Assembly: GCF_028550435.1 (NCBI RefSeq)
Contig: NZ_JAQQKV010000002.1
Location: 558,001 to 622,000 of the forward strand
Reading direction: 5' to 3'
Source of the DNA: Asticcacaulis machinosus
GTDB taxonomy: Bacteria > Pseudomonadota > Alphaproteobacteria > Caulobacterales > Caulobacteraceae
DNA: 64,000 nt
Part shown: one piece after another, positions 16,631 through 25,300 of the stretch
Layout: every line of letters starts with the position of its first letter
Position numbering within the stretch: position 1 is the first letter of the stretch
The notes under the pieces: model-generated
Databases searched by the model: none
Told to the model about the DNA's origin: nothing
What the model saw: only the letters and a program-made list of their open reading frames with translations
Position numbers and translations under genes: made by a program

Positions 16631-17713
16631 ATGATCAGATCCCCCTTAAGCGCGTCCACCATATTATCGTCCGGTGCTTCCCTGACCGAGCTGGATGCGC
16701 GGGCGCGTGATATCTTCCGGCAGGTGGTCGAGACCTATTTGGAAACCGGTGAGCCGGTCGGATCGCGCACCCTGTCACGCAGCGGCGTGTCATTATCACC
16801 GGCCTCTATACGCAACACCATGCAGGATCTGGCCCATCTGGGGCTGTTGTCGGCCCCGCACACCTCATCGGGAAGGCTGCCCACCCATCATGGTCTGCGC
16901 CTGTTTGTCGATGGTTTGCTGGAGATCGGCGATCTGAGCGAAGACGCCAAACGCGACATCGAAGCCCGCCTGACGTCCAAAGGCCACAGCTTTGATGTGG
17001 CTTTGCGCGAGGCGTCCTCCATGTTGTCGGGTCTGGCCGGTGGCGCGGGCGTAGTCATGACCCCCAGCTTTGAAGCCGGCGTCAAACATGTCGAGTTTAT
17101 CCTGCTCGGCCCTGATCAGGCGCTGGCGGTACTGGTCTATGATGACGGGCGGGTGGAAAACCGCCTGATGACCGTGGCGCTTGGGACCACGCCGTCGGTA
17201 CTCATCGAGGCCTCGAATTATCTCAATGCCCGTATCCGCGGCCGTACATTGGGGGAGGCCAAGCGCGAACTGGCCGCCGAACTGATTGAGGAACGCCAAA
17301 AACTGGATGAAGCCGCCTCAGAACTGATCAATCAGGGGCTGGCGGCCTGGTCGGGCGAAGAGGGCAACAAGCGCGCCCTGATCGTGCGCGGGCGGGCCAA
17401 TCTGCTGGAGGCCTCAAGTCTGGATGATCTTGAGCGGGTGCGGTCTTTGTTTGAGGATCTGGAGCAAAAAGAAGAGCTGATCGAACTGCTGGATGATGTG
17501 AAAGACGCCCAAGGTGTGCGAATTTTCATCGGATCGGAATCGAAACTGTTTTCTTTATCCGGTTCGGCTGTTATTGCAGCGCCTTACATGGCCGGTCAAA
17601 GTCAGAAGGTCGTGGGCGCCATCGGTGTAATCGGCCCGGCACGGTTGAATTACGCGCGGATCATCCCACTTGTTGACTACACCGCCAAAATTTTAGGCCG
17701 CCTGCTGGACTAA
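16631..17713 (+). CDS. hrcA: Heat-inducible transcription repressor HrcA
   Basis: A 360-residue repressor that binds CIRCE elements (TTAGCACTC-N9-GAGTGCTAA), with GroEL as co-factor. An N-terminal winged helix ([20 protein letters not shown] then [19 protein letters not shown]) is followed by a GAF-like domain and the C-terminal [20 protein letters not shown]. Gene order hrcA-grpE is classical. I see no CIRCE in this window, not even ahead of dnaK, consistent with alphaproteobacteria in which HrcA controls groESL only. Confidence 0.95.
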
Positions 17714-20731: not shown

Positions 20732-21343
20732 GTGCGTGGATTTAAAGCATCTTGGTTTATTGGGGTTTTATCGCTGTTTATCGCCGCTTGTGATGCCGGG
20801 CCGTCAGCGGTACTGCCGGATGGTCAGGGCACCTCGCCGTCCGAGCAGATCGCCCCGCCATCCAAACCACCCGTCTGGGCCGAGCCGGAGGCGGCACCGC
20901 AAGCCCCGCCGCCACCCGATACCGCCCCACGTCCCACTCCCGCCTTTGACAGTCCGGCGCTTAAGGTCAAGGTGCCAAAACCGGCCGGTGAGATCACGAA
21001 GACCCGCTATGCCGACTGGCCACTCTGGTCGACCAACCGCAAATATTCGGCCTATGAAAACGCCACCTATCACTTCGAAAAGCACGGTCCGACTTTTGGC
21101 ATCAAAACCTATGAGGACTATGTCGTCTTTGTGCATGGCTTTGTGCACACGCCGCCCAAGGGCACCCAGACGATCACCCGCAATAATGGCGACACGCTGT
21201 TCTATGATCCGGAGCAAAACATCTTTGCCGTTATGACCAAAAAGGGTGCACCGCGCACCCTGTTTCAGCCCTATGAAGGGGCCGCCTACTGGCAGAAACA
21301 GAAAGAGATCGAAGCCGGACGACGTACCTTGCGCGAGGACTAA
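20732..21343 (+). CDS. Lipoprotein with a toxin-like (BECR-type RNase) domain
   Basis: A 203-residue protein. It has a signal peptide with lipobox FIAAC (Cys20) and Asp at +2, which in E. coli retains lipoproteins in the inner membrane. A Pro-rich linker covers residues 25-75. Residues about 107-195 read YHFEKHGPTFGIKTYEDYV ... RNNGDTLFYDP ... RTLFQP ... AAYW. This pattern (HFxxHG, NGDxxxYDP, FxV, RTxF) resembles C-terminal ribonuclease domains of polymorphic toxins with the BECR fold; resemblance is from memory. There is no obvious immunity gene beside it. GTG start with GGAGGAAA upstream. It is divergent from coaBC. Confidence 0.65.
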   Translation: MRGFKASWFIGVLSLFIAACDAGPSAVLPDGQGTSPSEQIAPPSKPPVWAEPEAAPQAPPPPDTAPRPTPAFDSPALKVKVPKPAGEITKTRYADWPLWSTNRKYSAYENATYHFEKHGPTFGIKTYEDYVVFVHGFVHTPPKGTQTITRNNGDTLFYDPEQNIFAVMTKKGAPRTLFQPYEGAAYWQKQKEIEAGRRTLRED

Positions 21344-21397: not shown

Positions 21398-21525
21398 TTC
21401 TCCTCCCTACGCTTGCGTGGGGAGGTGGCAGCCCGATAGGACTGACGGAGGGGTACAACCGCCCGTAAAGATACCCCTCCGCCTCGTAAACTCGGCACCT
21501 CCCCACGATGTGGGGAGGAGAAATG
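21398..21525. repeat. Composite palindromic intergenic repeat, copy 3
   Basis: The clearest copy: two inverted halves. The left half reads CTCCTCCC...GGGGAGG, TGGCAGCCCGA and GACGGAGGGGTA. The right half is its mirror: TACCCCTCCGCC, CTCGGCACCTCCCC and GTGGGGAGGAG. It lies between the lipoprotein gene and the end of glmM, which converge, and may terminate both. Confidence 0.8.
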
Positions 21526-21559: not shown

Positions 21560-23185
21560 CTAAGCGGCGATCGTGGCCACGATATCGTCGACCACCGATC
21601 TGACCAGCTTTTCATCATCCCCTTCGGCCATCACGCGGATGAGCGGCTCGGTTCCGCTTGGGCGCACCAGAACACGACCGGCCCCTTTGAGGGCCTCTTC
21701 ACCGGCGGCAATGGCTTTTTTGACCGCGTCTTTTTCCATCGGGTTGTCACCGGAAAAACGGACATTTTTCAGCAATTGCGGCACCGTATCGAACTGCTTG
21801 CCCAGTTCACTCATCGGCTTACCGGATTCGACCAGCACCGCCAGAATTTGCAGGGCTGCCATCAGGCCATCACCGGTCGTGGCGTAGTCGCTCATGATGA
21901 TGTGGCCGGACTGTTCGCCGCCCAGATTAAAGCCGCCTTCACGCATCCGCTCCATGACATAGCGGTCACCGACCTTGGTGCGCTCTAAGCTCTGGCCATT
22001 TGACTGCATCAGGCGCTCTAAGCCGAGGTTCGACATGACGGTCGCCACCAGACCGCCGCCGCGCAGCAGACCCTTTTTCGCCCAGGCGGCGGCAATGATG
22101 GCCATGATCTGATCGCCGTCAATGACCTGGCCCTTTTCATCGCAGATCACCAGCCGATCAGCATCACCATCGAGCGCAATCCCGATATCGGCACGGTAGG
22201 TCTTAACGGCCTCCGCCATAGTCTGCGGATAGGTTGAGCCGCACTTGTTGTTGATGTTCAGACCATCCGGCGACACCCCGATCGGAAACACCTCGGCGCC
22301 CAGTTCATAGAGCGCGAGCGGGGCCACCTTATAGGCCGCGCCATTGGCACAATCGATGACGATGCGCATCCCCTTGAGGCGCAAATGACGTGGAAACGAC
22401 GCCTTGGTGATTTCAACATAGCGCGACTGGGCATCATCTACGCGCACCACCCGCCCAAGCTGATGGGGTTCGGCGACACCATCAAGGATATTGCCATCCA
22501 TGCGCGCTTCGATGGCCAGTTCGACCTCATCCGACAGTTTGTAACCATCGGGCCCGAACAGCTTGATGCCATTATCGGCAAAGGCATTGTGGGATGCTGA
22601 AATCATTACCCCCAGATCGGCGCGCATCGAGCGGGTCATCATGGCCACCCCCGGCGTCGGCAGCGGCCCGAACAGGCGCACATCCATGCCGACCGAGGTA
22701 AAACCTGCCACCAGCGCGGGTTCGATCATATAGCCCGACAGGCGCGTGTCTTTACCGATAACCACCAGATGGCGGCGATCATCGGATGACATGAACATCT
22801 TGCCCGCCGCCATGCCGACGCGGTAAGCGACTTCGGCGGTCATAGGGAAGGTGTTGGCGCGGCCACGGATGCCATCGGTGCCGAAATATTTGCGGGTCTT
22901 GTTCAGGCTGGTCATGTGCGTGGCCAATTCTTCGTTTTTGGATTTGATCGGGTTAAAACCGTAGAGCGTGAGAGCCGAGCGATAGTCGTTGATCTTAGCG
23001 GTCGCCAACGACACAAACGCCGCTTCCATCTTATCGACCGTTTCAGGGCGCGGGGACTTGGTCTGACCGTTCAGGGCGCGAAAGATGCTCGATTGCGCCA
23101 CACCGGCGGCATCGGCCACATCTTTGATCGAGATGCCGGACGCGCCTAAAGCACTTAGCAATCTTTCCCATTTAGGTTCGCTCAT
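21560..23185 (-). CDS. glmM: Phosphoglucosamine mutase with N-terminal HTH extension
   Basis: GlmM converts glucosamine-6-phosphate to glucosamine-1-phosphate for UDP-GlcNAc. The catalytic domain starts near residue 91 ([15 protein letters not shown]). The phosphoserine loop is ISASHNAF near residue 198, with Ala where Pro is usual. The metal loop is DGDADRLV and the phosphate loop [10 protein letters not shown]. The first 90 residues are extra: [20 protein letters not shown] is a convincing LacI/XRE-type helix-turn-helix. The upstream ATG (23185) has CGGAG 8 bp before it, while the internal ATG at 22915 has no good site, so the fused form is favoured. It diverges from glmS. Confidence 0.9.
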
Positions 23186-23235
23186 CTAAGGCTCCGACAC
23201 GAATATGCACGCAATTTACAGCGCACCCCAAATGA

Positions 23236-23262
23236 TTGCAACAAAATCCAAATATTTTGCAA
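23236..23262. promoter_or_regulatory. Paired TTGCAA sites between glmM and glmS
   Basis: Two identical palindromes TTGCAA (23236-23241 and 23257-23262) spaced exactly 21 bp, two helical turns, in the AT-rich 273-bp divergent region. They could be operator half-sites; binding factor unknown. Confidence 0.35.
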
Positions 23263-23458
23263 ATTATTCATTGCGTCATATATATTTAATCGCACAAAAA
23301 TATAAGCGTTAAATAAAAAATGCTTTTTATTCAACTCAATACCGCCAAACCTAGAAACTTTCTGTCACAGGGATTTATGGCGAAGCTTATTTTTATGTGC
23401 TAATTAAAAATCGCAAATTCGCGCTACAGGCATGAAAACTTAACCCGGAGGCTCTCAT

Positions 23459-25300
23459 ATGTGCGGCATTATCGGCATTATTGGCAAATCTGAGGCCGCC
23501 CCGCGCCTGCTGGAATCCCTGCGTCGGCTGGAATATCGCGGCTATGACTCGGCAGGTATTGCTGTGGTCACCCCAAACGGAACCCAGCGCCGCCGCGCCG
23601 AAGGCAAGATCCGCAATCTTGAGACCGTGATTACCGATGAGCCCATCACCGGCACCGTCGGCATCGGCCATACCCGCTGGGCCACCCACGGCGCGCCCAG
23701 TGTGCGCAATGCCCACCCCCATACCTCCGGCGCCGTGACGCTCGTCCACAACGGCATTATCGAAAACTTTGCTGAGCTTAAGGCCGAACTGATCGCCGCA
23801 GGCCATGAATTTACGTCTGATACAGATACCGAAGTCATTGCCCACCTGCTCGATGCCACACTGAAAACGGGTGCCTCTATCAAGGACGCTTTCAAGGACG
23901 TGCTCGATCGTCTGCACGGGGCCTATGCGCTGGCGATCCTTATTGAGGGTGAAAATGAGCTGATGCTGGGTGCGCGGCGCGGCTCGCCTTTGGTCATCGG
24001 CTGGGGCGAAGGTGAGATGTTTTTAGGCTCTGACGCTCTGGCGGTCGGGCCGTTTACCAACCGCGTCTCATACTTAGAAGAAGGCGACTGGGTCATCGTC
24101 ACCCGCACCGACGCCGACGTCTATGACCATAAGGGTTTCCGCGTTAACCGCCCCGCCACCACGGTGCCCACCTCCGCCGCATTGGTCGAAAAAGGCGCGT
24201 TCCGGCATTTCATGGAAAAGGAAGTCCACGAACAGCCCGAAAGCTGCCAGCGCACCCTGTCGGCCTATCTCGACCCGGTCGCCAAATCCGTGCGCGCCGA
24301 TATCAAGGCCAGCATCGACTTCAAAGACATCACCCGCCTGCAGATCATTGCCTGCGGCACGGCCTATTATGCCGGATGTATTGCGAAATACGCTTTTGAA
24401 AAGATCGCGGGCCTGCCCGTCGATGTCGAGGTGGCGTCTGAGTTCCGCTACCGCACGCCGGCCATGACCGCAGGCTCTCTGGCCATGGCCGTCTCACAAT
24501 CGGGGGAGACGGCGGACACTTTGGCCGCCCTGCGCTGGTGTGCCGGTGAAGGCTTGAAAACGGCGGCACTGGTCAATGTCCATACATCCACGATGGCCCG
24601 CGAAGCCGATATACTGTGGCCGACCCATGCGGGCCCCGAAATCGGCGTCGCCTCAACCAAGGCGTTTACCGCGCAGCTATCGGCCCTGCTGTCGCTGGTG
24701 GTCTGCGCCGCCGTTCAGCGCGGTAAGATCGATGCGGCTCAGGAAGCCCACTATGTGCAGTTGCTGCTGGAAACCCCCGGCCTGATTTCGCAGGCTCTGG
24801 TGATGGATTCTGAACTCTCCAAAGTTGCCGCCATCGACCTGTCGAAATCGTCCGACGTCATCTATCTGGGGCGGGGCGCCATGTTCCCGCTGGCGCTGGA
24901 AGGCGCGCTTAAGCTTAAGGAAATCTCCTACATCCATGCCGAAGGCTATGCCGCCGGTGAACTGAAACACGGCCCGATCGCCCTGATTGATGAAAAAACG
25001 CCGGTCGTGGTCATCGCCCCCGATGACGAACTGTTTGAAAAGACCGCCTCCAACGTGCAGGAAGTCGCCGCTCGCGGTGGCCGCGTCATCATGATCACCT
25101 GCGTGCCTGAGAAAGTCCCTGCCCTGTCGGGCGATGCGGCTAAGTCTTTGAAAATCATCAAGGGCCCCGCCTGCGATCCGTTCATCGCACCGATCATCTA
25201 TTCGGTGCCGATCCAGCTTCTGGCCTATCACACCGCTGTCCACAAAGGCACGGATGTTGACCAACCGCGCAATCTGGCTAAGTCGGTGACGGTAGAGTAG
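23459..25300 (+). CDS. glmS: Glutamine-fructose-6-phosphate aminotransferase
   Basis: A 613-residue enzyme making glucosamine-6-phosphate from fructose-6-phosphate and glutamine, the first step of hexosamine synthesis. The N-terminal glutaminase begins MCGIIGIIG with the catalytic Cys2, then GHTRWATHG and HNGIIENF. Two SIS isomerase domains follow (ACGTAYYAG, SQSGETADTLAAL) and the C-terminus DQPRNLAKSVTVE is typical. GGAGG lies 7 bp before the start. There is no glmS ribozyme upstream, as expected outside Gram-positives. Confidence 0.97.
   Translation: MCGIIGIIGKSEAAPRLLESLRRLEYRGYDSAGIAVVTPNGTQRRRAEGKIRNLETVITDEPITGTVGIGHTRWATHGAPSVRNAHPHTSGAVTLVHNGIIENFAELKAELIAAGHEFTSDTDTEVIAHLLDATLKTGASIKDAFKDVLDRLHGAYALAILIEGENELMLGARRGSPLVIGWGEGEMFLGSDALAVGPFTNRVSYLEEGDWVIVTRTDADVYDHKGFRVNRPATTVPTSAALVEKGAFRHFMEKEVHEQPESCQRTLSAYLDPVAKSVRADIKASIDFKDITRLQIIACGTAYYAGCIAKYAFEKIAGLPVDVEVASEFRYRTPAMTAGSLAMAVSQSGETADTLAALRWCAGEGLKTAALVNVHTSTMAREADILWPTHAGPEIGVASTKAFTAQLSALLSLVVCAAVQRGKIDAAQEAHYVQLLLETPGLISQALVMDSELSKVAAIDLSKSSDVIYLGRGAMFPLALEGALKLKEISYIHAEGYAAGELKHGPIALIDEKTPVVVIAPDDELFEKTASNVQEVAARGGRVIMITCVPEKVPALSGDAAKSLKIIKGPACDPFIAPIIYSVPIQLLAYHTAVHKGTDVDQPRNLAKSVTVE

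Follow-up and report, generated by a model that had tools for sequence, protein, structure and literature searches.

A helix-turn-helix domain fused to phosphoglucosamine mutase GlmM in Asticcacaulis: a candidate trigger enzyme at the divergent glmS/glmM locus

The window analysed here, a stretch of 64,000 nucleotides from Asticcacaulis machinosus (contig NZ_JAQQKV010000002.1, positions 558,001 to 622,000), carries on its minus strand a single open frame (21560-23185, 541 codons, no internal stop) in which a helix-turn-helix (HTH) domain of about 90 residues is followed by a complete GlmM. As described in the initial annotation, these residues precede the conserved GlmM start in the same frame, and the sequence CGGAG (23192..23196, minus strand), a putative ribosome binding site, is located ahead of the ATG at 23185. 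A further in-frame ATG at 22915 encodes Met91, which sits seven residues ahead of the usual GlmM start region and may be a second start or a structural residue. The fusion, referred to here as HTH-GlmM, shares a divergent intergenic region of 273 bp (23186..23458) with the plus-strand frame 23459..25300, which we take from its sequence to be glmS, which was compared with its relatives by tblastn, and which we propose as the second target of HTH-GlmM. GlmM converts glucosamine-6-phosphate to glucosamine-1-phosphate, and GlmS and GlmM together provide the amino sugar for peptidoglycan and lipopolysaccharide. An RNA regulator was set aside for the intergenic region, since a comparison of positions 22800-23600 with Rfam found nothing at E values up to 1. 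Just downstream of glmM lies a long imperfect inverted repeat (21420-21525; CTCCTCCCCAC... / ...GTAGGGAGGAG), perhaps a terminator or a dispersed repeat. The adjacent plus-strand frame of 203 residues (20732-21343) has a lipoprotein-like start and no Pfam match at E 0.01; it is 86% identical in three near relatives and stands beside glmM in no other locus fetched.

The catalytic part of HTH-GlmM begins at residue 98 (21560..22894, minus strand) and matches TIGR01455, the phosphoglucosamine mutase family, over residues 101-540 with 613.3 bits against an equivalog cut-off of 447.55. Alignment of 29 sequences revealed that ISASHN, DGDADR and GEQSGH are invariant, as is SGTE, with the prolines of RPSGTEP varying; we take these four to be the phosphoserine loop, metal, sugar and phosphate motifs. 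HTH-GlmM therefore has the same complete catalytic part and motifs as ordinary GlmM, from which it differs by the roughly 90 extra N-terminal residues with the HTH. No second GlmM was found in the window genome, where the closest further match is a paralogue of 28% identity encoded in a different frame; unless some unrelated enzyme stands in for GlmM, the fusion would therefore have to catalyse the mutase reaction.

Analysis of the N-terminal domain (residues 1-90; 22916..23185, minus strand) placed it among the XRE-type HTHs. Used alone as the query, these 90 residues matched Pfam HTH_3 (PF01381) at 1.1e-7 with 32.2 bits, above the gathering cut-off of 23, and the whole protein scored 28 bits against the same cut-off. 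The LacI-type HTH (PF00356) reached 22.5 bits, below its gathering cut-off of 27, and membership of that family was set aside. Among the 18 aligned domain sequences, HTH_3 matches all (E up to 0.1) and LacI 16. The domain is thus XRE-like with a weaker LacI likeness, in agreement with the LacI/XRE-type HTH named in the initial annotation. AlphaFold2 predicted a helical HTH fold for residues 1-97 (mean pLDDT 82.8), with helices at 5-16, 20-27, 31-38, 47-74 and 79-95; the second HTH helix corresponds to about residues 31-38 (23095-23072, minus strand). A model of the full-length protein had a pLDDT of 41.5 and was set aside. A Foldseek search with the domain model found nothing that reached E 0.001 (best E 0.13), and the nearest useful matches were the Lac headpiece, SinR, DdrO and 434 Cro (E 0.14-0.34); these proteins have the five-helix fold in common with the domain, with weak matches in both sequence and fold. 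In a profile search of PDB sequences, the best match (E 0.041) was a prophage protein. Repressor families of PHROGs matched the domain at 2.9e-8 at best, and tblastn of the 90 residues found no counterpart among 50,697 phage records (E 0.01), indicating that only the type of domain is phage-like; a phage origin of this particular domain was set aside. Compared with XRE and phage repressors, HTH-GlmM would have the GlmM effector part in place of the known repressor partner, and its domain has no significant match among solved structures.

Comparison of the domain among the 18 genomes revealed strong conservation. The alignment has 92 columns, none of them gapped and 40 of them invariant. For residues 2-60, 11 of the 13 genome pairs compared had a dN/dS of 0.143 or less; the other two values were 0.296, in a pair with almost no synonymous change (pS 0.02), and 0.338. 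The segment comprising the end of the long fourth helix, the linker and the last predicted helix (residues 61-97; 22895..23005, minus strand) is the fastest-evolving part, with dN/dS up to 0.41, and the GlmM part ranged from 0.012 to 0.146 in the 13 pairs. These sequence comparisons point to purifying selection and support the HTH domain as a real, selected part of GlmM.

To determine the distribution of the fusion, a domain profile was searched against 390 genomes of the family (E 1e-8). The fusion was found in 19 of the 25 searched genomes of the genus, the named matches being Asticcacaulis, and in none of the 365 other family genomes; all 19 matches lie at glmM, with a constant domain length. 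Eighteen genomes of the genus, among them that of the window, match query residues 1 to 539-541 in one stop-free frame. A search of 61 genomes showed that the match covers residues 1-358 in G004 and begins at residue 87-97 in G005, G007, G008, G009 and G014, and G003 is not callable, with a glmM fragment at a contig end and glmS not found. The frame of G004, a metagenome-assembled genome (locus L091, 3001-5175), leaves GlmM after residue 358, continues into Pfam S1 RNA-binding domains and totals 725 residues, probably an assembly chimera. A scan of named genomes returned 23 loci, namely ten from Asticcacaulis (L091-L100), which were already among the counted genomes of the genus and were not added again, and 13 weak matches in other bacteria. 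No standalone copy of the domain was found in the 390 family genomes at E 1e-8, and in nine genomes, of which six lack the fusion, a search at E 0.001 recovered only the three fused copies. With no stop between the two parts in any of the 18 complete cases, the alternative in the initial annotation, a small separate regulator, was abandoned. The same annotation held that relatives lacking the HTH, or encoding it separately, would speak against the fusion; relatives of the first kind exist (5 of 25, a sixth not being callable), and none of the second kind was found.

Phylogenetic analysis placed one domain-less genome, G005, among the domain-bearing ones. A nucleotide tree of rpoB joined G005 to the window group as its sister, with full UFboot support and inside the domain-bearing species, and an AU test rejected a grouping of all domain-bearing genomes without G005 (p 2e-36), which implies loss of the domain in G005 or replacement of its glmM. 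In the GlmM plus GlmS protein tree, the group of G003, G007, G008, G009 and G014 nests beside the G022 group (UFboot 98), and AU tests rejected neither alternative (p 0.234 and 0.112), so that monophyly of the domain-bearing group (p 0.234) is compatible with these data; on whether the same group lost the domain or never had it, rpoB does not discriminate (0.485 versus 0.516). On these sequences the domain-less relatives point to both gain and loss of the domain, and the most probable history is that the domain was gained once, close to the root of the genus, and lost one or more times since.

The gene arrangement around the fusion is older than the fusion itself. glmS adjoins glmM divergently in all 19 domain-bearing loci (18 fetched plus the window), in four of the six genus genomes for which no domain is established, and, outside the genus, in 11 of 12 loci from other genera of the family, indicating that the domain joined a pre-existing divergent pair. 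The exceptions in the genus are G003, which is not callable, and G005, whose glmS and glmM are some 430 kb apart on a single contig. At the glmM locus of G005 (L053, 4474-8473), the divergent neighbour of glmM is a cmk-like gene, followed by an rpsA-like one (names assigned by eye), which we read as a relocation of glmM.

Two candidate operators were observed in the intergenic region. O1 (23259..23274), on the glmM side, has the sequence GCAAATTATTCATTGC and agrees with GCAAT-N6-ATTGC at 9 of 10 bases; its N6 spacing resembles the operator spacing of 434. O2 (23378..23402), written TGGCG-N15-TGCTA in the window, agrees with TAGCA-N15-TGCTA at 8 of 10 bases and lies over the predicted glmS promoter. 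Both patterns came from a dyad search of the intergenic regions of nine representatives (5-base arms, spacing 0-16, at most one arm mismatch), in which GCAAT-N6-ATTGC ranked first (8 of 9) and TAGCA-N15-TGCTA second (7 of 9). In 200 dinucleotide shuffles the maxima were 3-5, once 7 and never 8, and random sets of nine from 16 domain-less regions gave maxima of 2-4. The shuffles overstate the significance, since a control region, the 275 bp ahead of rpoB in each of the nine representatives, also yielded a dyad shared by 7 of 9 through common descent. At 9 or more of 10 bases, the O1 pattern occurs in 16 of 19 domain-bearing genomes and the O2 pattern in 17 of 19, against none of the 17 genomes without the domain (the 16 of the main scoring plus G005) in either case; the consensus was drawn from the same genomes that were scored, and these counts are a description rather than an independent test. 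Two genomes, G017 and G011, carry the domain and have a best O1 site of 7/10. The window's own O2 (genome G000) is among the weaker examples, with 8/10, as in G013; the best site of the domain-less G045 also scores 8/10. G005 lacks the domain, the neighbouring glmS, O1 and O2. As the domain-less relatives also lack the candidate operators, their existence helps rather than hurts a regulatory reading.

Better evidence than the shuffles comes from conservation measured around the dyads. The mean pairwise identity of the O1 arms is 0.90 versus 0.33 and 0.32 in the 25 flanking bases on each side (eight genomes, G017 being left out for want of O1). For O2 the arms reach 0.91 versus 0.47 and 0.54 in the flanks (nine genomes), a less clear contrast because the region is a promoter. 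The window genome holds 36 copies of the relaxed O1 pattern GCAAW-N6-WTTGC, versus 13 of a backward control, and the pattern outnumbered this control in each of the six genomes scanned; such a word is therefore not rare in itself. Long stop-to-stop frames (at least 126 codons) enclose 34 of these sites, and a wider regulon was set aside on this count. Of the two sites outside long frames, one is O1 and the other separates a transporter-like gene from one resembling atpH (both named by eye), a distribution that suggests a local, dedicated regulator. By eye, and given no weight here, the O1 inner arm could serve as the -35 element of a glmM promoter in G022-like genomes, and in the window the promoter would sit upstream of this position by some 20 bp.

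The TAGCA-N15-TGCTA pattern has 11 sites in six genomes, one to three in each, and the glmS promoter is among them in all six. The others are four sites of the form TAGCACTC-N9-GAGTGCTA, in four of the six genomes, and one more. CIRCE, the operator of HrcA, reads TTAGCACTC-N9-GAGTGCTAA, and we take the four sites to be CIRCE elements. The outer bases and span of O2 presumably equal those of CIRCE; an identification of O2 as CIRCE was set aside because the glm sites have only the outer TAGCA/TGCTA, the inner CIRCE bases being absent. An hrcA-like gene lies at 16631-17713, and about 4-6 kb separate such a gene from O2 in the window, in three near relatives and in G003; the likeness to CIRCE near this gene is probably a coincidence. 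Within the TGCTA arm of O2 lies GCTA, as in a Caulobacter-type -10 box, the RpoD consensus of Caulobacter including GCTA in the available part of its description (PMC8144410). With TGCTA overlapping the predicted -10 GCTA, a protein bound at O2 would block the glmS promoter.

From these features we infer DNA binding by the domain, the dyads as its operators, repression in preference to activation, and the ligand. HTH-GlmM is probably a self-contained, bifunctional trigger enzyme whose binding between glmS and glmM feeds the amino-sugar status back on both genes. An intact enzyme and a nucleic-acid-binding part in one polypeptide, the hallmark of a trigger enzyme, are found here at the level of sequence. 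The GlmM part would still convert glucosamine-6-phosphate to glucosamine-1-phosphate, and the XRE-type HTHs, paired by the GlmM dimer, would bind O1 on the glmM side and O2 at the glmS promoter. GlmM of Staphylococcus aureus is a dimer according to the available part of its description (PMC6368335), from which two HTHs per particle are expected if dimerisation, assumed here, extends to HTH-GlmM. As O2 spans the glmS -35 and -10 elements, bound HTH-GlmM should repress glmS, and at O1 it would adjust glmM itself. The signal would be the occupancy or the phosphorylation state of the GlmM active site, and entry into amino-sugar synthesis would thereby follow GlmM's own load. The initial annotation had suggested regulation of glmS or of glmM itself, a proposal partly supported by the conserved candidate dyads, which track the domain. 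More tentatively, and with the odds somewhat against it, HTH-GlmM may be a flux controller, in which the catalytic cycle, through substrate occupancy or phosphorylation of the active-site serine, sets the DNA-binding state of an HTH pair bridging O1 and O2 over about 120 bp. glmS and glmM would then be set together, the controller would replace, in this genus, RNA-based or other controls of glmS, and the domain would have been added to a pre-existing divergent pair and lost when the pair splits.

Several other explanations were weighed against the trigger-enzyme reading. The HTH might bind DNA or another partner for a purpose other than glm control, such as nucleoid tethering, oligomerisation or the regulation of other genes. 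We regard this as unlikely: the binding of the HTH to O1 and O2 is something we infer, O1 is missing from two domain-bearing genomes, G017 and G011, and the relaxed O1 pattern recurs throughout the genome, but nearly all of its sites fall inside long frames, and both elements are absent from domain-less genomes, G005 included. About as unlikely, in our view, is that a different regulator uses the dyads, or that O2 is part of the promoter, with the match to the HTH reflecting only common ancestry. The overlap of O2 with the predicted -10 GCTA, the agreement of its outer bases and span with CIRCE, the TAGCACTC-N9-GAGTGCTA sites found by the same pattern and the 7 of 9 reached by descent alone at rpoB all fit that explanation; against it, the glm sites lack the inner CIRCE bases, conservation drops to background directly outside the O1 arms, and G005, placed among domain-bearing species by rpoB, lacks both elements.

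Two products from one frame, a scarce full-length HTH-GlmM as the regulator and a short GlmM from Met91 as the enzyme, appear improbable. The ATG of Met91 is invariant and in frame in all 18 fusions of the domain alignment, close before the usual start region, which modifies the initial judgement that this ATG is poorly placed; the judgement stands in that no consistent Shine-Dalgarno sequence was seen by eye 5-9 nt upstream in the 18 sequences. Moreover, the length of the linker and last helix is conserved, and relatives without the domain begin about three residues before RKYFG, not seven. A short product from Met91 would modify, not overturn, the trigger-enzyme reading. That the extension is annotation noise or a functionless relic is scarcely credible, given a frame, length and residues kept across 18 genomes and a mostly low dN/dS.

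Comparison with known systems suggests that HTH-GlmM belongs to a known kind, the trigger enzyme, here in a new enzyme family, GlmM. In the part of the source available, NadR of Enterobacterales combines an HTH with NMN adenylyltransferase and RNam kinase and represses genes of its own pathway, and its HTH-bearing form is limited to one order, most orthologues being without the HTH (PMC12421817). On that partial description, NadR is the closest design, a housekeeping enzyme with an N-terminal HTH in a restricted lineage, but its enzyme and pathway are unrelated and its repression is established by experiment, whereas HTH-GlmM is known from its sequence. The proposed targets also differ, being for HTH-GlmM its own gene and the divergent neighbour. 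With GlmM domains behind the HTH rather than NMN adenylyltransferase and RNam kinase, HTH-GlmM is an analogue of NadR and not a member of its family. BzdR, as far as the accessible text describes it, joins an XRE-type HTH to a shikimate-kinase-like domain whose enzyme activity is lost, and a synthetic chimera of the BzdR HTH with an active kinase has been made (PMC3602430). BzdR and HTH-GlmM would thus have in common an XRE-type HTH linked to an enzyme-derived domain, and the chimera, so described, is a laboratory version of the HTH-GlmM architecture. Unlike BzdR, HTH-GlmM keeps its catalytic motifs and appears to be the sole GlmM of its genome. Among the matches listed in the open-access literature (titles and openings of abstracts), none describes an HTH-GlmM.

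The production of GlmS is controlled elsewhere by the glmS riboswitch-ribozyme and by the small RNAs GlmY and GlmZ, which likewise feed amino-sugar phosphate back on GlmS production but are RNA-based. To our knowledge, the balance of the first amino-sugar step against its use is well known only for such RNA-based systems. On the trigger-enzyme reading, the genus would offer a natural case for studying how enzymes become transcription factors, in related species with and without the domain, and G005 and the group of G007, G008, G009 and G014, without domain and dyads, provide a ready contrast. If the trigger-enzyme reading is true, a pathway enzyme in Asticcacaulis would read its own load and set the transcription of the entry step, a simple feedback device.
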